The notes under the pieces: model-generated
Seen by the model: only the letters and a program-made list of their open reading frames with translations
The model's database searches: none
What the model was told of the DNA's origin: nothing
Origin: Sphingomonas sp. Root720
GTDB lineage: Bacteria; Pseudomonadota; Alphaproteobacteria; Sphingomonadales; Sphingomonadaceae
Direction of reading: 5' to 3'
Length of the DNA stretch: 64,000 nucleotides
Assembly (NCBI RefSeq): GCF_001428605.1
Contig: NZ_LMID01000011.1
Coordinates: 372,001 to 436,000 of the forward strand
Translations under genes and position numbers: made by a program
Part shown: in pieces, positions 11,742-35,994 of the stretch
Layout of the letters: every line of letters starts with the position of its first letter
How positions within the stretch are numbered: the stretch's first letter is position 1

Positions 11742-11789
11742 CATGACAAAAGGCCCGCCGGCATCGCTGCCGGCGGGCCTTTTGTCATG
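11742..11789 (-). terminator. Perfect 22-bp palindrome, rho-independent terminator of rpsT
   Basis: Two perfectly complementary 22-bp arms (11742-11763 and 11768-11789) flank a four-base loop TCGC. The GC-rich core GGCCCGCCGGC is followed by TTTTG on both strands, so it can terminate in either direction. It sits 14 bp after the rpsT stop and separates rpsT from dnaA. Confidence 0.85.
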
Positions 11790-12986: not shown

Positions 12987-13091
12987 GGCTTCGACCTAGA
13001 CCAGCCGCCACGCCGGCGGAAGCCGGGATGACGAAGACCGGGTAGGAAACTCGATTTGCGACCTGCTCAAGCTATCGCTAGAGCGTCGCCC

Positions 13092-17122: not shown

Positions 17123-17202
17123 CGTCGCCCCGGCGAAGGCCGGGGTCGCGGGAGAGGCGCTGATCGTTCATCTGTGAGATGCCAGCCTCCGCTGGCATGA
17201 CG
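17123..17202. repeat. Palindromic intergenic repeat, about 80 bp
   Basis: Two half-palindromes bound the element: GTCGCCCCGGCGAAGGCCGG on the left and CCAGCCTCCGCTGGCATGAC on the right, with GAGAT before the right one. The layout matches copies at 29829-29916, 33593-33674 and 34811-34896. It follows dut and could act as a transcript-end structure. Confidence 0.65.
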
Positions 17203-29828: not shown

Positions 29829-29916
29829 GTCATCCCGGCGAAAGTCGGGATCTCACCGCCTTTGATCGGGCCGATACCGGCACGAAGGCAGAGAGATTCC
29901 AGCGTTCGCTGGAACG
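29829..29916. repeat. Palindromic intergenic repeat, about 88 bp
   Basis: Left half GTCATCCCGGCGAAAGTCGG (continuing to GGATCTC) and right half with GAGATTCCAGCG and CTGGAACGAC. The arms are more diverged than in the copy at 34811-34896, but order and spacing are the same. It lies between the DUF418 gene and the ppdK stop. Confidence 0.6.
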
Positions 29917-29928
29917 ACGGAGATGCCG

Positions 29929-32598
<2,670 letters not shown>

Positions 32599-32653
32599 AC
32601 GCCCGTCACTCTCCCCATCACGACCCGCTCCCCGCAGGAGCATGGCAATCGAA

Positions 32654-34789
32654 TCAGCCCTCGATGTTCGAGAAGTCCGCCACGTTGTGCACCGCAACAC
32701 GTATTTTTTCAAGCAGCGCGAGACGCGTGTTTCTTTTCGATGACTCGGGATCGTTGACGATGACCTGATCGAAGAAGGCGTCGATCGGGCCGCGCAACGT
32801 CGCCAGAGCCGACATCGCGCCCGCAAAATCCTCGGCCGCGACCGCCGCCGCGGCCTTCGGCTCGGCGGCATCGAGCGCGGCGATCAGGACGGATTCCGCG
32901 ACTTCCGGCTGATAATCGGGTACCGCCGAGGCGCCCTCGGGCACCCCGCCCTCCTTCTTCAGGATATTGGCGGCGCGCTTGTAGCCGGCGAGCAGGTTGG
33001 CACCATCCTCGGTCTCGACGAACGCCTGCAGCGCCTTCACACGTGCCAGCAGTCGGACGAGATCGCTCTCACCACCGAGCGCGAACACCGCGTCGATCAG
33101 GTCGTGGCGGACACCAGCCTCGCGCTGTTGGACCTTGAGACGGTCGATCAGGAATTGAACGATCTCGTCCACGCGGACCGGATGGGCTGCCTTGCGAAGG
33201 CCGATTGCATGGTTGATCGCGCCGAAGAGGTGCGCCCGTATTTCGTTCACGGTGAGCAGCTCGAGGATACCCAGCCCGGCGCGTCTGAGAGCGAAGGGAT
33301 CTTTCGACCCCGTGGGCTTCATGTCTTCGGCAAAGAATTGTGACAGGCTGTCCAGCTTGTCCGCCAGACTGACGGCCACCGTCACCGGCGCGACCGGAAC
33401 CTCGTCCCCCTGCCCCACCGGCTTGTAATGATCGCGGATTGCATCGGCCACGGCATCTGGCAGCCCCTCGGCCCGCGCATAATAGCCGCCGATGACGCCC
33501 TGAAGTTCCGGAAACTCGCCGACCATGCCGGTGACGAGATCGGCCTTGGCGAGGCGTGCGGCCTGTTCGACCATGTCCGCGATCTCCTCACGCGTCATGC
33601 CAGCGGAGGCTGGCATCTCGGGAGATGAGGTGCCGCCCTCGCCGCCTGAGACCCCAGCCTTCGCTGGGGTGACGATGTCGGATTCGACCAGCCACCGGGC
33701 CAACTTCGCCACGCGGTCGACCTTGTCGGCGACGGTGCCCAGCTTCTCGTGGAAGACGATCTGGTCGAGCTTCTTCGCCTGCTCGGCGAGCGGAACCTTG
33801 AGGTCCTGCTCCCAGAAGAACTTCGCGTCCGACAGCCGCGCCGCCAGCACCTTGCCATTGCCCGCGACGATCGCCGCGCCGCCGTCCTTCGCGGTGATGT
33901 TGGCGGTACAGATGAAGGCGGGGGCGAGCCTGCCCTCGGCGTCGTTGAGCACGAAATATTTCTGGTTCGTGCGCAGGGTGAGCTGGATCACCTCGCGCGG
34001 GACCTCCAGGAAGGCCGGGTCGAAGCGGCCGAGCAGCGGCACCGGCCACTCGGTCAGGCCCGCATTCTCGGCGACCAGCCCCTCGTCGGGGATGACCTGC
34101 ATGCTTGCCTCGGCGGCCAGCTCGGCGGCGCGGGCGCGGATGATGTCGCGACGCTCGGCATGGTCGACGATGACGTGGCAGGCGCGCAGCTTTTCGACAT
34201 AATCGGCGGCGCTGCCGATGGTGATGATGCCCGGGTGGTGGAAGCGGTGGCCGACCGTCGCCGCGCCGCTCGCCACGCCGTCGATCTCGAACGGGACGAT
34301 GTCCTCGCCGAGCAGCGCGACGATGCCCTGCAACGGACGCACCCAGCGCAGCGAAGCGGTCGACGCGGAGGCGGTGCCCCAGCGCATCGATTTCGGCCAG
34401 GGAAAGGCGCGGACGATCGCCGGGATCGCCTCGGCAAGCACGGCGGCCGTGGCGCGGCCCGGCTTCTCGATCACGGCGAACAGGATGCCGTCGCGCTCGA
34501 CCAGCTGTTCGCGGGTCAGCCCGGTCTTGCGCAGGAAGCCTTCGAGCGCCTGCGGCGGCGCCGAGGCCTTGGGGCCTTTCAGTTCTTCCGACACCGCCGC
34601 CGTCTCGACCGGCAGGCCATGCGCGATCAGCGCGAGGCGGCGCGGCGTGACATGGCTGGTCAGCCGTTCGGGCTTCAGGCCGGCCTTGGCCAGTTCGTCG
34701 GCGAACAGGCGGGCGAGGTCGGCCGACGCCTTCTCCTGCATCCGCGCGGGGATTTCCTCGGAGAGGAGCTCGAGGAGGAAATCGCTCAC
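32654..34789 (-). CDS. glyS: Glycyl-tRNA synthetase beta subunit, with internal repeat insertion
   Basis: The beta subunit of the heterotetrameric enzyme that charges tRNA-Gly. The 711-residue product starts at GTG 34789 behind GGGAGAGAGG. The N-terminal FLLELLSEEIPARM, the TNQKYF segment near 275 and the C-terminal anticodon-binding portion are all normal. Residues about 373-399 are unusual (TPAKAG...EMPASAGMT): they are encoded by an 82-bp palindromic element of the type found between genes here, inserted without breaking the frame. Function is presumably kept. glyQ lies upstream on the same strand. Confidence 0.95.
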   Translation of the reverse strand: MSDFLLELLSEEIPARMQEKASADLARLFADELAKAGLKPERLTSHVTPRRLALIAHGLPVETAAVSEELKGPKASAPPQALEGFLRKTGLTREQLVERDGILFAVIEKPGRATAAVLAEAIPAIVRAFPWPKSMRWGTASASTASLRWVRPLQGIVALLGEDIVPFEIDGVASGAATVGHRFHHPGIITIGSAADYVEKLRACHVIVDHAERRDIIRARAAELAAEASMQVIPDEGLVAENAGLTEWPVPLLGRFDPAFLEVPREVIQLTLRTNQKYFVLNDAEGRLAPAFICTANITAKDGGAAIVAGNGKVLAARLSDAKFFWEQDLKVPLAEQAKKLDQIVFHEKLGTVADKVDRVAKLARWLVESDIVTPAKAGVSGGEGGTSSPEMPASAGMTREEIADMVEQAARLAKADLVTGMVGEFPELQGVIGGYYARAEGLPDAVADAIRDHYKPVGQGDEVPVAPVTVAVSLADKLDSLSQFFAEDMKPTGSKDPFALRRAGLGILELLTVNEIRAHLFGAINHAIGLRKAAHPVRVDEIVQFLIDRLKVQQREAGVRHDLIDAVFALGGESDLVRLLARVKALQAFVETEDGANLLAGYKRAANILKKEGGVPEGASAVPDYQPEVAESVLIAALDAAEPKAAAAVAAEDFAGAMSALATLRGPIDAFFDQVIVNDPESSKRNTRLALLEKIRVAVHNVADFSNIEG
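33593..33674. repeat. Palindromic repeat inserted in frame within glyS
   Basis: Imperfect inverted ends 33593-33613 (CGTCATGCCAGCGGAGGCTGG, 21 positions) and 33654-33674 match each other at 18 of 21 positions. The element resembles the intergenic copies in this window. In glyS it encodes about 27 extra residues with no stop codon. Confidence 0.8.
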
Positions 34790-34810: not shown

Positions 34811-34896
34811 GTCATCCCGGCGGAAGCCGGGATCTCACTGCCTTCGTGCCGGCAGAGAGAAGAAACAAGGGAGATCCCGGCTTTCGCCGGGATGAC
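34811..34896. repeat. Palindromic intergenic repeat between glyQ and glyS, about 86 bp
   Basis: The clearest copy. Left arm 34811-34836 and right arm 34871-34896 are inverted copies matching at 25 of 26 positions (GTCATCCCGGCG type). It lies in the gap between glyQ and glyS, so it will be part of any common transcript. Confidence 0.8.
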
Positions 34897-34921: not shown

Positions 34922-35812
34922 TCACGCCTCCCACCCATTATGCGCCATCCAGGCGGCGCAGGCCCCCTTGGTCAGGTCGCGGACGCGGCCGATATAGGCC
35001 TGGCGCTCGGCGACCGAGATCACGCCGCGCGCCTGCAGGGTGTTGAAGATATGGCTGGCCTTGATCGCCTGGTCATAGGCAGGCAGCGGCAGCGGCCGCT
35101 TCACCCCATCGACTTCGCGATCGAGCAAGGCGCGGCATTCGTCGGCGGCCTGGGTGAACTGCCTGAACAGCGTGTCGGTGTTCGCCGCCTCGAAATTATA
35201 GGCGCTGAACTGGCGCTCATTCTCCAGGAAGACATCGCCATAGCTGACGCCCTCGTCGTTGAAGGCGAGGTCGTAGACCCGGTCGACGCCCTGGATGTAC
35301 ATCGCCAGCCGTTCGAGCCCATAGGTCAGCTCGCCCGCGACGGGCTTGCAGTCGAAGCCCCCCACCTGCTGGAAATAGGTGAACTGGGTCACCTCCATGC
35401 CGTCGCACCACACTTCCCAGCCGAGCCCCCAGGCGCCGAGGGTCGGGCTTTCCCAATCGTCCTCGACGAAGCGGATGTCGTGCGACAGCGGATCGATGCC
35501 GATCCGCTCCAGACTGCCGAGATAGAGTTCCTGCAGATTGGCGGGGCTCGGCTTCAGGATCACCTGATATTGGTAATAATGGCCCAGCCGGTTCGGGTTC
35601 TCGCCATAGCGCCCGTCGGTCGGCCGGCGCGACGGCTGGACATAGGCGGCCTTCCACGGCTGCGGGCCGAGCGCGCGCAGGGTCGTCGACGGATGGAAGG
35701 TACCCGCGCCCATCTCCATGTCATAGGGCTGGAGGATCAGGCAACCCTGGTCGCTCCAATAGTCGTGGAGCGTCAGGATCAGGCGCTGGAACGAGAGCGG
35801 CTTGGTCGCCAA
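34922..35812 (-). CDS. glyQ: Glycyl-tRNA synthetase alpha subunit
   Basis: Catalytic alpha subunit, class II aminoacyl-tRNA synthetase. From TTG 35812 (GAAGGA ribosome site) the product has 296 residues, the family norm. Motifs: [18 protein letters not shown] near the N-terminus, [14 protein letters not shown] near 30, [15 protein letters not shown] near 55 and [12 protein letters not shown] near 165. An ATG at 35917 is in frame, but it lies upstream of a good promoter (35850-35878) and would add 35 unlike residues. The palindromic repeat separates it from glyS. Confidence 0.93.
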
Positions 35813-35849
35813 GGCGGGGTCCTTCGAGGCGGTTGAAATCTCGCCCGGC

Positions 35850-35878
35850 CCTTTGCGGCAGGGGGCGCGGCGGGTCAA
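35850..35878 (-). promoter_or_regulatory. Candidate glyQ promoter
   Basis: On the minus strand a TTGACC -35 (35873-35878) and a CAAAGG -10 (35850-35855) are separated by exactly 17 bp. The -10 is weak, but the spacing and -35 are good. It supports the TTG 35812 start over ATG 35917, since the ATG would lie upstream of the transcript start. Confidence 0.45.
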
Positions 35879-35994
35879 GGATGGCGGCCCGTTTTCGCCG
35901 CCCTTCCCCTCGGTCATGCCGAATAGTTACGCCATGACGAGGGGCCGGAGCGGCGGGGCTCGCAATTCGCCGTGCATCTACCTAGATCAGGGGC

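Follow-up and report, generated by a model that had tools for sequence, protein, structure and literature searches.

In-frame palindromes are known from Rickettsia proteins as scattered cases whose survival is hard to explain, and the Rickettsia palindromic element RPE-1 reportedly occurs as in-frame insertions in Rickettsia genes. Repetitive extragenic palindromes (REPs) of the GTAG type are short palindromes in head-to-head pairs and are thought to be mobilised in trans by the HuH transposase RAYT (TnpA-REP). Repeats tagged CGTC were described by Di Nocera et al. (2013; PMC3733652), who reported CGTC-1 from several sphingomonads, S. wittichii among them. CGTC elements are mostly head-to-head dimers and, in the part of that article available to us, no dedicated transposase was found for them (PMC3733652). 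RPE-4 was assigned to CGTC-4 and RPE-6 to CGTC-1, and intragenic copies were recorded, including some in tRNA synthetases of E. litoralis and S. alaskensis (PMC3733652), cases that may include GlyS. The element described here is an 82-bp CGTC-type dimer lying inside glyS, the gene for the glycyl-tRNA synthetase beta subunit, in Sphingomonas sp. Root720. The stretch analysed, called the window below, is 64 000 nucleotides long (assembly GCF_001428605.1, contig NZ_LMID01000011.1, positions 372 001 to 436 000 of the forward strand) and is numbered from its first letter. Since the CGTC family and its intragenic copies have already been published (PMC3733652), the novelty lies in the site and not in the element: one loop of an essential enzyme is repeatedly used by different repeat types. 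In the open-licence PMC literature, taken without supplements, no paper on palindromes in GlyS was found besides the general one (PMC3733652), and no report of one enzyme loop reused by different repeat types.

In the reading preferred here, to which a probability of about two in three is given, repeats are inserted in trans many times throughout the genome and survive where a disordered in-frame insert does no harm, later insertions overlaying earlier ones.

The element (33593–33674) begins with CGTC and ends with GACG, and 18 of its 21 outer bases pair. Its halves form the stem-loops ATGCCAGC-GGAG-GCTGGCAT and ACCCCAGC-GAAG-GCTGGGGT, the second stem pair of the latter being C-G. Over 27 nt, 33593–33619 is identical to the reverse complement of 17176–17202. 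The folded strand gave a z score of −2.99, and 2 of 200 shuffles folded as well as it did. The element is read in frame, with neither stop nor frameshift, as VTPAKAGVSGGEGGTSSPEMPASAGMT, at approximately residues 372–399 of GlyS. The loop that holds it, called loop A below, has 38 residues in the window against 12 in most uninserted sphingomonads, a gain of 26. Pfam matches to tRNA_synt_2f (PF02092, E = 7.8e-182) and DALR_1 (E = 3.2e-8) span the open reading frame (ORF). The genome matched the gene at one place only, in two stretches sharing a frame; the GlyS with the in-frame insert is encoded by the only glyS of the genome, and its fold is predicted to be intact. A first-pass annotation, made from the letters alone, had reported an 82-bp element with inverted ends (18 of 21 matched) inside glyS, adding about 27 residues without a frame shift. 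Both parts of this observation were confirmed.

The repeat is multicopy. With up to three mismatches allowed, the half-element pattern gave 159 + 161 = 320 matches in the 5.59-Mb genome, against 1 + 0 for the reversed pattern, and four matches in the window, against none in each of 100 dinucleotide shuffles; these counts exclude chance. Among the 100 matches listed of the 320, many form facing pairs about 50–70 nt apart. The three related copies that had been claimed for the window were recovered as dimers, together with one single half (Table 1). The core of the first-pass reading, a mobile-like palindrome become protein in an essential enzyme in the manner of RPE, is supported by the copy number of the repeat and by the inclusion of RPE-4 and RPE-6 in the CGTC class. 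RAYT was considered as the mover and rejected: the single Y1_Tnp match of the genome looks IS200-like from its ORF, and no CGTC half lies in the 3318-bp locus. Two side observations concern other repeats. In genome G000, CGTC halves are regularly spaced, by 251 nt in C14:177746-178335 and by 109 nt in C15:424085-424328, probably as parts of repeat-bearing tandem arrays. The window also contains, at 11742–11789, a perfect 22-bp inverted repeat that is not of the CGTC type by its sequence.

Loop A was compared in two samples. GlyS loci were gathered with peptide patterns taken from the window GlyS, and the best 80 of 577 matches were kept. Judged by titles and similarity, 54 of them were counted as sphingomonads (some titles read just Proteobacteria); with the window they make 55 sphingomonad rows, and the remaining 26 loci served as the non-sphingomonad comparison. 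One search pattern (EEIADMVE) adjoins the insert, which may bias these 80 loci. A second sample, free of this bias, consisted of 29 genomes from 28 genera, the genome of the window included; two of its rows, L102 and L107, have loops equal to those of pattern-found loci. After removal of near-duplicates (L102, L107 and L106, the row of the window's own genome), the pooled set comprised 81 sphingomonad rows. GlyS blocks beyond window residue 533, a region of highly variable length and non-palindromic in many sphingomonads, were excluded from the insert analysis.

Loop A has at least 20 residues (20 to 68) in 34 of the 55 sphingomonad rows, and 9–11 in the 26 non-sphingomonad loci. In 25 of the 34 long-loop rows, and not in the other nine, it holds an inverted repeat that outscores each of the 60 control windows taken from that gene. 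The 81 pooled rows divide into 42 with a palindromic type, seven short or unclear and 32 empty, the types being labelled by hand-made peptide rules (the label of L103 was changed by hand). An empty loop in 32 rows means that the segment is absent from some sphingomonad GlyS proteins, as expected of an insertion. Five palindromic types have four or more rows. The inserts recorded were CGTC dimers, TCCTCCCCG..CGGGGAGG, CCCTCTCCC..GGGAGAGGG, CCCCTCCC..GGGAGGGG and GAGCGNAGTCGAG (SRDT), and three others once each; the residues that they encode differ completely between types. The second sample gave a similar picture on its own: 12 of the 29 genomes have a long repeat-type loop A, and seven of these 12 score at least 14.

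Scores were computed for ungapped inverted repeats, and 16 or more was taken as strong. On this scale the window element scores 12, below the cut, and the maximum of its 60 control windows is 9. Among the 42 typed rows, 28 score at least 16 and 33 at least 12, whereas none of the 35 rows labelled 'none' reaches 12. Scanning of all 81 glyS genes (182 kb) gave 43 inverted repeats at or above the cut of 16. Loop A holds 28 of them and a second loop, loop B (about residues 614–626), 12, which makes 40 in the two loops; one lies near residue 282 and two elsewhere, the limits of loop B and of the third site being set by the analyst. In the same 29 genomes, a score of at least 16 was reached by glyS in 7/29, ileS in 5/29, pheT in 0/28, alaS in 0/28 and polA in 0/29 (a pheT match was missing from one genome and an alaS match from one). 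One could suspect an artefact, from a faulty assembly, a misread frame or GC-rich coding DNA forming a hairpin by chance, as chance inverted repeats in GC-rich genes reach 14 (two alaS) and 15 (one polA). However, none of the 85 comparator genes reaches 16, three triplet-shuffled windows gave no inverted repeat of 17 or more, and the inserts occur in many assemblies; we regard an artefact as refuted. In IleS, in-frame palindromes of several types were seen in L213, L214, L217, L219 and L229 (score 17–25) and in L228 (15).

A tree of 86 GlyS sequences, of which five came from the 26 non-sphingomonad loci and brought the number of empty rows to 37, was built with the loop columns excluded. The type labels require 41 changes on it, against a shuffled mean of 43.5 (19 of 200 shuffles were as low), and insert type has thus almost no phylogenetic signal. 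Supported sisters differ in type: L044 (CGTC) and L049 (CCCTCTCCC) at 100, and the window (CGTC) and L004 (TCCTCCCC) at 97. The expectation that the insert would be limited to close relatives was therefore not upheld, since other sphingomonads have different palindromes at this loop and the row nearest to the window, L004, is of another type. If empty loops are never restored, at least 29 insertions are needed on the careful tree with all branches kept, 21 when branches below 80 are collapsed and 8 below 95; a quick tree gave 28, 22 and 11 under the same assumption and collapses.

The strongest rival explanation is that one ancestral sphingomonad insertion opened the loop, that replacement or overlay has taken place in situ since, and that loops became empty again when species exchanged glyS. 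Empty loops indeed group together on the tree, with 18 changes where shuffling gives 28.9, the CGTC heads are stacked in some rows, and inserted rows share, with rare exceptions, a helix start x-L/I-A-x-x-A after the insert, where many empty rows have KGAD(P/A)D. Yet 32 of the 81 rows have loops of 14 residues or fewer, many of the KGAD type, and empty rows stand as supported sisters of inserted ones (L037/L018 at 100, L019/L030 at 98). The shared start could also be explained by helix capping, as the modelled helix 400–413 begins directly after the insert. A single ancestral opening is on balance unlikely. The reading of repeated insertion accounts for the stacked heads as well: extra CGTC heads precede the present element in L002, L003, L030 (three in all), L044 and L101, as expected from successive insertions.

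Some loop A sequences carry further features. In L033 a different palindrome seems, by eye, to be nested within an older CCCTCTCCCC element. In L005, L053 and L108 the palindrome is separated from the conserved ATCGTC (or ATTGTC) by a stretch resembling a tRNA 3′ end (GGGGGTTCAAATCCC or GGGGGTTCGAGTCCC) followed by an acceptor-like strand. A copy of a resident tRNA was rejected as the source in L005 and L053, the sole genome match with up to two mismatches being glyS itself by its coordinates, and a search of five loci against Rfam gave matches below the gathering score only, with no RNA family in the loops. L053 (QDFQ01000001.1) is titled Arthrobacter sp. TPD3018; its GlyS is 72% identical to that of the window and groups with Sphingomonas, so the genome is probably mislabelled. 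Among Brevundimonas, L056, L065 and L075 have GlyS insertions after window residue 285, and L056 and L075 also after 439, some of them repeat-like.

The position of the loop in the protein was examined on models. The AlphaFold2 model of the window GlyS has a mean confidence (pLDDT) of 90.5, with a predicted loop at 370–399 where values fall below 50 at 379–390, between helices 353–369 and 400–413. The model aligns to the E. coli GlyRS beta subunit (7yse_C) with Z 36.5 and a root-mean-square deviation of 4.2 over 636 residues. By sequence alignment, loop A corresponds approximately to E. coli residues 379–386, within the HD domain, which covers 341–540 (PMC8464048). It lies outside the HD-domain tRNA contacts named in the part of PMC9908026 available to us, namely Thr406, Gln409, Ala439, Gly473, Asp474, Asp476, Arg481, Arg482 and Arg531. 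A model of the L011 GlyS, which carries a different palindrome and a second insert, has a mean of 85.1; disorder is predicted at 381–399 and 688–729, which comprise both inserts, and also at 574–584, the remainder being well predicted. GlyS would tolerate the insert because the loop joins two helices and is not one of these contacts.

The proposed course of events would then be the following. Presumably an enzyme acting in trans copied a CGTC-type REP dimer, in frame, into the HD domain of GlyS, at a disordered loop. Such insertion may be common everywhere and be purged by purifying selection unless the DNA can grow in frame, so that a tolerant loop would behave as an intergenic gap within a gene. 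Older inserts would decay and newer ones overlay them, and the CGTC tag may fall on a CGTC that glyS itself already had.

Copies of the loop repeats were counted in the host genomes. Six hosts gave 64, 35, 25, 9, 3 and 1 copies of the CCCTCTCCC type, and six gave 55, 35, 14, 10, 6 and 4 copies of the CCTCCCCG type; for the SRDT type, four hosts gave 57, 47, 34 and 27. The control genome G036 had a single copy of each of the three, and for the SRDT type its reversed control likewise gave 1. CGTC matches amounted to 39–320 in nine genomes with a CGTC loop, against 1–99 in 14 others, of which 12 have another insert and two have none (one-sided rank p = 6e-4, uncorrected for kinship). Where counted, the loop palindromes are thus mostly of types resident elsewhere in the same genome, and the GlyS loop seems to record the repeats active in each lineage.

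Several points weigh against the preferred reading. The first-pass annotation had expected a genome search to show many copies, some in genes; the 320 half matches bear out the first part, but none of 64 CGTC elements sampled outside glyS was shown to be intragenic in the window's own genome. These 64 came from 60 regions among the 100 listed matches, all of them exact, and diverged copies are consequently missed. At least one open frame encloses the element in 28 of the 60 regions (31 frames altogether). Twenty of the 31, of at least 240 residues, were scanned by Pfam for other in-gene copies of the GlyS kind, which were rejected: four have domains (DoxX; MoCoBD; PCRF plus RF-1; a methyltransferase), all C-terminal of the element only. 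In-gene survival therefore seems rare despite the many copies. The repeat counts can include the loop's own arms, which makes those of L033 (1), L054 (3), L007 (4) and L052 (6) weak; they cover the CGTC, CCCTCTCCC, CCTCCCCG and SRDT types and exclude CCCCTCCC, HPELVSG, HPEPVEG and APAKAGAQ. Moreover, L039, L046 and L004 have many CGTC copies (99, 52 and 48) and another loop type, and L015 has 21 CCCTCTCCC copies and a loop of the CCCCTCCC type. The TCCTCCCCG..CGGGGAGG, CCCTCTCCC..GGGAGAGGG and CCCCTCCC..GGGAGGGG types are C-rich and mutually alike and may share descent. Fourteen of the 42 typed rows score below 16, nine of them below 12. Open frames per insert (3.1 of 6, against 2.3 in shuffles) are in mild excess; a special open-frame property of the repeats was rejected as weak. 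The similar helix start after inserts could reflect common ancestry as well as capping. Finally, the closest inserted and empty sisters compared (L018, L037) are too diverged for a target duplication to be read, and no clean empty-site pair was found.

The rest of the operon was also considered (Table 1). The glyQ–glyS gap, which is a 1- or 4-nt overlap in many rows, holds a strong inverted repeat in 25 of 79 rows, and the 250 nt after glyS in 6 of 73. Inserts were found in both loop and gap in 21 rows, in the loop only in 19, in the gap only in four and in neither in 35 (Fisher p = 7e-5). This association was lost on phylogenetically independent tree pairs (median p 0.69).

Table 1. Coordinates of glyS, its landing sites and the CGTC-type repeats of the window
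Feature	Coordinates	Strand	Basis
glyS, glycyl-tRNA synthetase beta subunit, 711 aa	32654..34789	-	ORF and Pfam
Head-to-head CGTC REP dimer inserted in glyS	33593..33674	.	Inverted ends, multicopy genome-wide
Half-element 1: CGTC tag, 8-bp stem, 4-nt loop	33593..33619	+	Sequence
Half-element 2, diverged stem (ACCCCAGC)	33648..33674	-	Half-element match
Loop A codons, residues 370-407, recurrent landing site	33569..33682	-	Alignment and model
Loop B codons, about residues 613-629, second landing site, empty here	32903..32953	-	81-gene scan and model
CGTC dimer between glyQ and glyS, another occupied site of the operon	34811..34896	.	
glyQ, glycyl-tRNA synthetase alpha subunit	34922..35917	-	ORF, named from sequence
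Related CGTC dimer, just beyond the end of the 29929-32871 (-) ORF	29829..29918	.	
Related CGTC dimer	17124..17202	.	Window repeat search
Single CGTC half-element	13007..13032	.	2-3 mismatches

The recurrence of inserts in GlyS and at the operon junction, with their co-occurrence by the Fisher test, might suggest that they are kept for a function, either as an RNA hairpin tuning glyQS expression or as a flexible tether beside the tRNA-binding HD domain. This is very improbable given that the encoded residues are wholly different between types, that 32 of 81 rows live insert-free and that the co-occurrence is not significant on independent pairs.

Alternatively, the loop and the glyQ–glyS junction could be preferred targets of the mobilising process, perhaps a single-strand, replication-linked one, with no part played by selective survival. 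The loop carries strong inverted repeats about as often (28/81 rows) as the gap does, and more often than the stretch after glyS; the CGTC tag coincides with the Ile-Val-coding ATCGTC of glyS in the window, L018 and L100, and the tRNA-3′-end-like stretches of L005, L053 and L108 stand at the same junction. Against this, the boundaries are not the same for all types, loop B, IleS and the gap also receive inserts, different repeat types would all need the same preference, and CGTC lies near the junction in just 12 of the 32 empty sphingomonad rows. Targeting of this kind, without selective survival, is improbable. A related and still rather doubtful proposal is that the HD-domain loop of GlyS is a docking site shared by different repeat families and, in three species, by apparent tRNA 3′ ends, with almost the same codons (Ile-Val, ATCGTC) as their entry point. 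If true, it would imply that a single insertion process, common to them and acting in trans, favours targets in the glyQS operon, and GlyS would then keep a natural record of which repeat families have been active in each lineage.

Because many apparently independent insertions of several types fall in one loop, tolerance can be tested against targeting if loops, genes and repeat types are compared within the same genomes. This loop further offers a ready assay for the movement of CGTC repeats, since new inserts in related strains can be looked for at one known position, and it represents a natural experiment on non-homologous DNA becoming protein.

Compared with CGTC-1 as described in the available part of PMC3733652, the window element agrees in most respects. 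Both of its halves begin with the unpaired CGTC end, and each has the 8-bp stem and 4-nt loop with A-T pairs first, apart from the C-G second pair of half 2. The short unpaired tail, mostly CCA in CGTC-1, is CTC here. The high copy number and the head-to-head dimers are found here too, with 320 half matches, as is the lack of a linked transposase: the Y1_Tnp locus is CGTC-free, Y1_Tnp being the family searched. A recurrent site for several repeat types in one protein loop, seen here, is not reported in that part of the article. With the GTAG REP/RAYT system, the elements share the arrangement of short head-to-head palindromes; the tag is CGTC and not GTAG, and in place of a repeat-flanked RAYT gene the genome has a single Y1_Tnp match with no CGTC repeat in the 3.3 kb around it. 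With the Rickettsia RPE they share in-frame palindromes within genes, the link to RPE-6 following from the assignment made in PMC3733652. The RPE hosts are obligate intracellular bacteria, whereas the hosts here are free-living and GC-rich, and a single loop is used by several repeat types.

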